Assembly (NCBI GenBank): GCA_030425285.1
Contig: JAUIAY010000006.1
Span: 1-64,000 of the forward strand
Direction of reading: 5' to 3'
Origin: Bacteroidia bacterium
GTDB taxonomy: Bacteria; Bacteroidota; Bacteroidia; Flavobacteriales; Flavobacteriaceae
DNA: 64,000 nucleotides
Below, piece after piece: positions 54,260 through 55,706 of the stretch. Position 1 is the first letter of the stretch. Each line of letters begins with the position of its first letter. The translations under genes were made by a program, and so were the position numbers. The notes under the pieces are model-generated. The model did no database searches. It was not told the DNA's origin and saw nothing but the letters and a program-made list of their open reading frames with translations.

Positions 54260-54265
54260 ATTAGT

Positions 54266-54349
54266 ATTCCTTAAAAAAGGAATATATTAGTTTATTCTAT
54301 AAAAAAGGCATATATTTGATTATTCCATAAAAAAGGCATATATTTGGTT
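54266..54349 (+). repeat. Three tandem 28-bp direct repeats carrying promoter boxes
   Basis: Units begin at 54266, 54294 and 54322, each exactly 28 bases, with the shared core ATTCyntAAAAAAGGnATATATT. The first unit contains a perfect inverted repeat ATTCCTT-aaaa-AAGGAAT (54266-54283). Units 2 and 3 end in TATATTTG, the -7 consensus. They fill the space between the thioesterase and the SatD-like gene. Confidence 0.88.
54316..54346 (+). promoter_or_regulatory. Promoter of the SatD-like gene
   Basis: TTG at 54316-54318 and TATATTTG at 54339-54346 are spaced by 20 bases, close to the Bacteroidota TTG-N19-TAnnTTTG form. The start codon is 21 bases further on. Both elements come from the 28-bp repeats, so promoter and repeat overlap. 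Confidence 0.6.
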
Positions 54350-54367
54350 GTTACTAAATAAAATGAC

Positions 54368-54991
54368 ATGACAGGTGTAATAACTGGCGATATTATAAAC
54401 TCTACCGAATATAGTGATCCAAATGTTTGGTTAAACCCTTTAAAACAGGCTCTTGAACGAGTGGATAATAATCCTAAAAATTGGGAAATATTTAGAGGTG
54501 ATAGTTTTCAAATTCAAGTCAATGATGTTTATCAATGCTTCATAAATGCGGTCTATATAAAAGCTTGTATAAAAATGGTAAAAGGATTGGACGTCAGAAT
54601 GGCTATAGGTATTGGATCCATAACATTTAGAGGTAATACCGTAACAGAATCAAATGGAAGCGCTTTTCAAAACTCTGGTAATTTATTGGAACTCTTAAAA
54701 CAAACTAAAACCAATTTAAAAGTAAAAGGAGCTGGAAACATAGATGGCGAGCTGAACCTTTATCTAAAACTTATAAATATCCTAATGGATAATTGGTCGG
54801 TAAATTCAGCAGAAATCATTAAATTACATCTAGAGAACGAGAACAAAATCCAAAAAGAATTGGCTAAACTAATTGGTATAAGCCAAGATGCAGTTAGTAA
54901 GCGTATGAAACGCGCTTATCTTGATGAAATATTAGAAGTTAACAATATGTTTAAACAAAAAATAGCACAAATTCATGCTTTTAATAACTAA
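54368..54991 (+). CDS. SatD-family protein with C-terminal helix-turn-helix
   Basis: The 207-aa protein begins MTGVITGDIINSTEY, typical of SatD-like proteins. Its central domain, FRGDSFQIQVNDVYQCFINAVYIKACIKMVKGLDVRMAIGIG, looks like a nucleotide-cyclase-type alpha/beta fold. It ends with a probable DNA-binding helix-turn-helix (about 160-190: KIQKELAKLIGISQDAVSKRMKRAYLDEI). It overlaps the DUF3307 gene by 17 bases. The HTH and the tandem repeats in its own promoter suggest autoregulation (inference). The biochemical role is unknown. Confidence 0.83.
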   Translation: MTGVITGDIINSTEYSDPNVWLNPLKQALERVDNNPKNWEIFRGDSFQIQVNDVYQCFINAVYIKACIKMVKGLDVRMAIGIGSITFRGNTVTESNGSAFQNSGNLLELLKQTKTNLKVKGAGNIDGELNLYLKLINILMDNWSVNSAEIIKLHLENENKIQKELAKLIGISQDAVSKRMKRAYLDEILEVNNMFKQKIAQIHAFNN

Positions 54992-55679
54992 ACTCTTACT
55001 AGCTCACTTAATTGGTGATTTTCTATTACAACCCAAGAAATGGGTAAAGGAAAAAGAGAAACGAAAGTTAAAATCGCCTAAACTATACATTCACGCAGGT
55101 ATACATTTAGTATTATTATTCTTGATAGTTTGGGATCTTTCAGTCTGGCCTTTACTGCTTACCATTGGGATATTACATTTAGTAATTGATGGGATAAAAC
55201 TTTTCTTTCAAAAAAAAGAAACTAAAAGGCAGTGGTTTTTTATAGACCAACTACTACATATTACCAGTATTGTCATTGCTTATTTGGTATTTACAGGCCA
55301 AACCATTTCGATGGAAGACATATTTACTGAAAATGCTCTTTTATTGGTTACTTGCTTATTGTTTTTAACGCAGCCTGTTTCCATTATTATGAAAGCTATT
55401 TTTAGTAAATGGAATATTGAAAAATTAACCAAAGGCAACGAGTCCTTAAAAGATGCTGGAAAATACATCGGGATATTGGAGCGCATCTTGGTATTTATTT
55501 TCATAATAACAAATCATTGGGAGGCAGTGGGTTTTTTAATAACGGCTAAATCAGTTTTTAGATTTGGCGATTTAAAGGAAAGTAAACATAGAAAACTAAC
55601 AGAATACATATTAATTGGCACATTAATAAGCTTTGGAATTGCCATTGTTACAGGAATATTATTTACTGTGTTGATATAA
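54975..55679 (+). CDS. DUF3307 integral membrane protein
   Basis: The 234-aa protein has several transmembrane helices (TKLLLAHLIGDFLLQPKKWV, AGIHLVLLFLIVWDLSVWPLLLTIGILHLVIDG, ILIGTLISFGIAIVTGILF). The N-terminal LLxAHLIGDFLLQPxxW with HLVIDxxK is the DUF3307 hallmark. It overlaps the SatD-like gene by 17 bases, a pairing common across bacteria, so the two probably function together. The substrate is unknown. Confidence 0.88.
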   Translation: MLLITKLLLAHLIGDFLLQPKKWVKEKEKRKLKSPKLYIHAGIHLVLLFLIVWDLSVWPLLLTIGILHLVIDGIKLFFQKKETKRQWFFIDQLLHITSIVIAYLVFTGQTISMEDIFTENALLLVTCLLFLTQPVSIIMKAIFSKWNIEKLTKGNESLKDAGKYIGILERILVFIFIITNHWEAVGFLITAKSVFRFGDLKESKHRKLTEYILIGTLISFGIAIVTGILFTVLI

Positions 55680-55682
55680 AAA

Positions 55683-55706
55683 AAACCATCAAAAATATGA
55701 TGGTTT
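55683..55706. terminator. Bidirectional hairpin terminator
   Basis: A 9-bp stem AAACCATCA / TGATGGTTT has a 6-base loop, between the convergent DUF3307 and T9SS genes. T runs are short. Confidence 0.7.

Follow-up and report, generated by a model that had tools for sequence, protein, structure and literature searches.

The three 28-base repeats upstream of the satD gene in this flavobacterial genome are in all likelihood the operator of SatD. Judged from comparison of sequences, SatD dimers would bind dyads spaced 28 bp apart, residue 178 of the protein would pick the inner triplet of the dyad, and the satD-DUF3307 operon would be autorepressed.

Results

The array fills a promoter region. The window is the whole stretch of DNA analysed, 64,000 nucleotides from a member of the Flavobacteriaceae. 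The repeats occupy a 108-base gap between the end of a thioesterase gene (54259) and the start of satD (54368). The features of the locus are as follows.

54265..54284, + strand: operator site 1 (predicted), TATTCC-TTAAAAAA-GGAATA, with 8-bp perfect inverted arms
54293..54312, + strand: operator site 2 (predicted), TATTCT-ATAAAAAA-GGCATA
54311..54318, + strand: -7 box TATATTTG, sharing bases with the end of site 2; predicted start near 54323
54321..54340, + strand: operator site 3 (predicted), TATTCC-ATAAAAAA-GGCATA
54339..54346, + strand: -7 box TATATTTG, sharing bases with the end of site 3 and preceded by a TTG at 20 bases; predicted start near 54351
54368..54991, + strand: satD, 207 aa, N-terminal alpha/beta palm-like domain and C-terminal helix-turn-helix (PF16264, AlphaFold2, Foldseek)
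54884..54913, + strand: predicted recognition helix of SatD, codons 173-182, from the secondary structure of the model
54899..54901, + strand: codon of Lys178, which covaries with the operator core
54975..55679, + strand: DUF3307 gene (PF11750), 234 aa, all-helical and hydrophobic with conserved His/Asp; overlaps the end of satD

The units are TATTCCTTAAAAAAGGAATATATTAGTT at 54265, TATTCTATAAAAAAGGCATATATTTGAT at 54293, and TATTCCATAAAAAAGGCATATATTTGGT at 54321. Pairwise they are identical at 23, 24, and 26 of 28 positions, with no indels. The array matches itself best at a lag of 28, with 87.5% identity over 56 positions; the shuffle maximum was 66%, and none of 1000 shuffles reached the self-match of the array. 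TRF gives a repeat at 54265-54346 with a period of 28, 2.9 copies, 88% matches, and a score of 129. Each unit consists of a 20-bp dyad, TATnnn-N8-n'n'n'ATA, followed by 8 bases. Units 2 and 3 end in TATATTTG, and unit 1 has TATATTAG in its place. Site 1 is a perfect inverted repeat with arms of 8 bp around AAAA, and units 2 and 3 retain its dyad imperfectly, showing that the dyad belongs to every unit.

The initial annotation had described three 28-bp units without indels and a perfect -7 box in two of them, and both descriptions hold. It had also placed a TTG 20 bases before the -7 box of the next unit, which is correct for the box of unit 3 and not for the others. The palindrome that it had assigned to unit 1 is perfect there but not confined to that unit. 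The downstream genes were correctly named as a SatD/DUF3307 operon, since both exceed their Pfam cut-offs: SatD scores 36.5 bits with PF16264 (cut-off 29) and DUF3307 scores 110.2 bits with PF11750 (cut-off 23).

The tandem two-site pattern, with up to three mismatches, was found at two places on the forward strand of the whole genome, both in the window array, and a reversed control gave none. Single sites with up to two mismatches numbered 264 in the genome versus 223 in the control, and the sole exact match is unit 1. These near-matches do not point to a large set of SatD targets, and there may be one or a few single-site targets. The locus is on a 151-kb contig with chromosomal-type genes on both sides. 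The host is close to Hanstruepera, and its nearest SatD proteins in the named collection are those of H. marina (79%) and H. ponticola (75%). Elsewhere in the window, positions 1293-2788 contain about 7.5 tandem copies of a 198-base unit that are 74% alike, probably within a repeat protein gene.

Similar arrays precede SatD genes in many other genomes. The initial annotation had proposed searching the satD upstream regions of related genomes, and the array type is present in the examined SatD-bearing relatives of the genus (L010, L011, and L012) and far beyond, so the absence in close relatives that it had named as grounds for refutation is not observed. SatD relatives are found in 30 of 60 relatives and in 217 of the 397 genomes of the family. 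The family loci analysed were 30 of the listed matches and 60 more taken by region, a subset of the 217 genomes. There were 127 loci in all, 120 of them with a SatD match, and 117 were analysed after removal of the duplicates L001, L039, and L040. Dyads of the form TATnnn-N8-n'n'n'ATA, with one end mismatch allowed and at least 5 of 6 pairs, were sought in the 250 bases upstream. The 117 Flavobacteriales loci have 303 dyads, whereas 30 shuffle sets averaged 34 and never exceeded 54. At least two dyads are present in 102 loci (shuffle mean 4.8, maximum 8), and six loci have none. Distances between neighbouring dyads, which were unrestricted in this search, are 28 bp in 143 cases, 29 bp in 12, and 56 bp in 12, and never 27 or 30 bp. 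The search requires TAT and ATA ends, as it did for the shuffles, which in part accounts for the uniform ends seen in Flavobacteriales; distant loci have other ends, such as TTAGCC, ACAACC, and GTTCGC. A looser chained search, limited to set distances, found arrays in 112 of the 117 loci, each with two to six sites. The five loci in which it found no two-site array were left out of the covariation test.

Another 35 loci were examined by the self-match test: 17 class-wide (two of them from the same family), 12 on plasmids, and 6 from IMG/VR, with the near-duplicates L148/L160, L153/L159, and L157/L158 among them. A repeat is significant in 25 of the 35 (p<0.05, uncorrected), with a lag of 28 in 13 loci, 29 in nine, 37 in two, and 21 in one. 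The 22 loci with a significant 28/29-bp repeat include gammaproteobacterial plasmids, prophage-like contigs, and haloarchaea. For example, a Vibrio lentus plasmid has TTAGCC-6-GGCTAA three times at 28 bp, an Enterobacter kobei plasmid has TCAACC-5-GGTTGA twice at 29 bp, and the haloarchaeon Natronosalvus has ACAACC-6-GGTTGT twice at 29 bp. In L140, L149, and L165 the best lag is 28 or 29, short of significance. The test found no repeat in Sphingomonas (L152), P. fragi (L154), L131, L139, L146, L147, and L164; in L146 and L147 the tested stretch started inside the open frame, and four dyad units can be made out ahead of L147.

The arrays were classified by their core, the inner triplet at site positions 4-6. 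Classes were assigned before the helix alignment was seen, and ungrouped triplets were left out of the vote. The classes are WAG (38 arrays), TCC (31), CAY (15), CGN (14), CTG (8), TAC (3), and TGN (3).

The sites overlap promoter elements in some classes. The -7 box of sigma-A promoters in Flavobacterium psychrophilum is TAnnTTTG at -12 to -5, according to the available part of that study (PMC9723704). Of the 303 TA at site ends, 73 have nnTTTG directly after them, versus 27 of 2034 for other TA. A -7 box is in register in 48 of 112 arrays. By class, TAnnTTTG is in register in 22 of 31 TCC, 13 of 15 CAY, and 7 of 8 CTG arrays, but in only 4 of 38 WAG and 1 of 14 CGN arrays, and repression by overlap is therefore well grounded for the first three classes only. 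The proposal in the initial annotation that the operator doubles as the promoter thus applies clearly to the window and poorly to the WAG and CGN lineages.

In the window, the way the sites abut the -7 boxes suggests autorepression of the satD-DUF3307 operon. A SatD dimer would read each 20-bp dyad through its C-terminal helix-turn-helix, with residue 178 of the recognition helix selecting the inner triplet, and two or more dimers would sit side by side at 28-bp intervals, presumably binding cooperatively. The dyads are located between the -33 region and the -7 box, where a bound dimer would block RNA polymerase. As the sites fill this gap, bound SatD would silence its own promoter, and the DUF3307 gene, being translationally coupled, would fall silent too, so that the effect would be repression rather than activation. 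Release may come from a change in the N-terminal domain of SatD, perhaps on nucleotide binding. A step of 28 bp does not complete an integral number of turns of the helix and three steps (84 bp) make about eight, so that a chain of SatD dimers winding around the DNA is conceivable.

SatD might instead bind the array as an activator, or autoregulation might be a minor function of SatD and the array might mainly serve another purpose, such as segregation or silencing of the locus. The 64 of 112 arrays with no in-register -7 box would be consistent with this, as would the long arrays, which reach six sites in L058 and L063 and at least five units in L143. However, the array stands directly before the operon, and the boxes in the window overlap sites 2 and 3. 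In the available part of a study of Streptococcus pyogenes, satD scores as essential, yet only 178 of 249 genomes have it (PMC11323703). An essential but accessory gene would fit a repressor or antidote that holds a harmful partner down. Activation or a different main task is accordingly rated as unlikely, and autorepression by SatD is preferred.

The operator core varies in step with one residue of the SatD recognition helix. Residue 178 (window numbering) directly follows the conserved serine of the helix. It is Lys in all 31 TCC arrays, Gln in 37 of 38 WAG, Glu in 13 of 14 CGN, and Glu in all 8 CTG arrays. In the CAY arrays it is small or polar in 15 of 15 (Asn, Thr, Ser, Met, or Gly). The minor classes are TAC, with Arg twice and Lys once, and TGN, with Glu, Gly, and Ser. 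The exceptions to the main pairings are L038, which is WAG with Lys, and L020, which is CGN with Gly. Among all scored columns, corrected mutual information with the core class peaks at residue 178 (1.63, next 0.96); the raw triplet gives the same leader (1.49, next 0.96), as does each of site positions 4, 5, and 6.

Residue 178 also leads when descent is traced on the other domain. The tree made from SatD residues 1-135 has 22 branches with a change of class, and on 14 of these residue 178 changes as well (26 changes among 222 branches); in this test, which ignores branch length, p=3.7e-10 for residue 178 and 1.9e-4 for the next column, 184. For pairs of N-domains less than 45% identical, the class is the same in 91 of 134 pairs with the same residue 178 and in 40 of 823 pairs with different residues. 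The helix has two sequence types, ..VSxRxKR and ..ISxGLKR, and the pairing recurs in both: TCC with Lys also in L033 and L123, WAG with Gln also in L026, L027, and others, and CGN with Glu likewise in L031, L111, and L113. Outside the set, the rule was checked on 16 loci that have Lys, Glu, or Gln and score 25 or higher, with a post hoc cut-off, a helix aligned by eye, and no shuffle control; 15 of them carry CC, CG, or AG in one arm or both. Among the fits are two haloarchaea, which have Glu and CG, and G031, whose distant SatD pairs Gln with TAG. The exception is L128, which has Lys but TGC/TTC.

Because the inner triplet tracks residue 178, SatD itself very probably reads the array. Such covariation is expected from direct reading by SatD and is hard to explain otherwise. 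Together with the spread of the arrays, it supports the suggestion in the initial annotation of an operator array over the promoter that is read by the SatD-like protein. A different regulator could in principle bind the array, with SatD merely travelling along, given that the covariation is statistical and that residues 28, 132, and 146, outside the helix, also correlate somewhat with the core. However, the strongest SatD column is in the predicted recognition helix and far ahead of the others. The array also moves with the gene pair to plasmids and archaea, making a shared third regulator unlikely, and DUF3307 is hydrophobic and helical, with no DNA-binding match found. This explanation is judged improbable, a little more so than activation. 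Neutral tandem duplication of a promoter with no binding protein would account for the near identity of the units, which resembles that of a recent duplication, but can be dismissed, as the 28/29-bp spacing and the dyad outlast changes in the core letters, and those changes keep step with residue 178.

SatD is predicted to combine a palm-like domain with a DNA-binding domain. PF16264 matches 49 of 59 aligned SatD relatives (E up to 5). The AlphaFold2 model of SatD has a mean pLDDT of 96.6, and the N-domain is predicted with high confidence. Foldseek places Csm1, mycobacterial adenylyl cyclase, GGDEF, and guanylate cyclase domains at the top for the N-domain, none with E<=0.001. Adenylyl cyclase MA1120 has an E of 0.005, a probability of 1.00, and TM scores of 0.40/0.48; GGDEF and Csm1 palm domains score alike, and a bacterial cUMP synthase is at rank 35 with an E of 0.028. 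The modelled N-domain thus weakly resembles cyclase/palm folds. Two residues, D8 (in GDI..S) and D45 (in RGDSFQ), do not vary among the 59 aligned proteins, and by eye they may match the two metal-binding aspartates of the cyclase. Kinship with class III cyclases by sequence profile was considered and rejected: hhalign of A1 with 12 PF00211 members gave a probability of 0.7%, with D8 and D45 outside the aligned columns. A search of a viral structure library gave no clear relative (best E 0.05). Among side observations, the helix-turn-helix of SatD from plasmid pEC34A (L148:1792-2469) resembles YlxM with an E of 6.7e-8, under the cut-off of that model, and satD is apparently broken into two frames with stops at G078:C65:6716-7317. 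A relative of the order has five adjacent genes with PF00211 cyclase domains (G042:C24:203804-212269).

DUF3307 is the usual partner of SatD. It has a match near SatD in all 120 SatD-bearing loci, and in 72 of 116 the satD stop shares four bases with the beginning of the frame after it. DUF3307 is found in 31 of 60 relatives; the extra one, G031, is that with the distant SatD beside it. PF11750 matches 43 of 43 aligned relatives. The model is all-helical with a mean pLDDT of 90.7, and a PDB search with it gave no useful match (best E 0.86). Invariant in the 43 proteins are H11, D15, Q19, H40, H68, D72, K75, D91, Q92, and H95. Based on the model and these residues, DUF3307 may be a membrane enzyme with a metal site. 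In relative G032 it is split into two frames (G032:C4:314699-315387), and in the window a terminator-like hairpin with a T run (55683-55706, minus strand) lies between DUF3307 and the convergent gene.

Discussion

The satD-DUF3307 pair shares features with several known systems. Iterons at plasmid origins are tandem binding sites of constant spacing that are read by a Rep protein. The window array likewise has tandem sites at constant spacing, but it is in a chromosomal promoter region and its proposed reader is a regulator, not Rep. The term iteron-type in the initial annotation is apt as a word for tandem sites and not in the sense of a replication origin, which was rejected because the tandem precedes an operon whose relatives carry the array wherever they are located.

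Type II toxin-antitoxin operons are autorepressed two-gene modules. Similarly, the satD pair is a small two-gene operon with a helix-turn-helix first protein and tandem dyads over the promoter, and it occurs on small plasmids. The partner of SatD differs in being a hydrophobic, membrane-type protein. Pycsar systems combine a cyclase with a membrane or TIR effector. The N-domain of SatD has its weak fold similarity to class III cyclases and DUF3307 is membrane-like, but SatD has no sequence relationship to those cyclases and carries a DNA-binding domain and its own operator. For neither SatD nor DUF3307 of the window did PADLOC return a family, Pycsar included, up to an E of 1. A gene annotated as 'Pycsar system effector family protein' adjoins satD-DUF3307 on the Sphingomonas insulae plasmid (L152:3569-4072), where no 28/29-bp repeat was found. 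Finally, recognition residues covary with sites inside the MerR family in the Prot-DNA-Korr analysis, as far as the available part of that paper describes it (PMC5045206); in contrast, every SatD would have a tandem operator to itself, placed at the operon that encodes it.

SatD is named for secretion and acid tolerance in Streptococcus mutans, and the papers, in their available parts, treat acid tolerance or essentiality (PMC11323703, PMC10326533, PMC5786311). No operator, DNA code, or partner comes up in those parts of the open literature on SatD; subscription papers may contain such an account. The proposed regulation offers a testable mechanism for two barely studied families.

The satD-DUF3307 pair is mobile, being found on a 3.77-kb plasmid and on prophage-like contigs. 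E. coli plasmid pEC34A has 3,770 bases, and the pair makes up two of its five annotated genes. Other plasmids (16 records) carry it as well, including a P. fragi plasmid on which it lies between recombinase genes. On prophage- or satellite-like contigs, SatD has the following neighbours: in L164 an integrase and a D5-type primase, in L161 a phage protease, and in L162 peptidoglycan-binding and HNH proteins. DUF3307 was confirmed to adjoin SatD in all three. In the archaeon Natronosalvus the gene after satD is annotated as hypothetical. Phage records gave no match for SatD or for the DUF3307 of pEC34A, and the pEC34A pair was not matched in complete E. coli genomes. These locations point to a module that travels on very small plasmids and prophage-like elements and is absent from the PADLOC defence library.

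A more speculative possibility, put forward tentatively, is that the pair is a mobile two-gene immunity or addiction module distributed across bacteria and archaea. A repressor with a palm-fold nucleotide sensor and a 28-bp operator would restrain a membrane-embedded, metal-binding DUF3307 effector, and the operators would be private to each lineage, with their letters set by one repressor residue. If so, private operators would insulate co-resident copies from each other. The arrays also offer a natural repressor/operator set from more than 100 genomes in which one residue tracks the operator letters. At least seven arrays (L014, L049, L053, L063, L064, L088, and L029) have two kinds of core, for example TATTCC sites followed by TATCAC, and these are possibly operators caught in the middle of a change of specificity.
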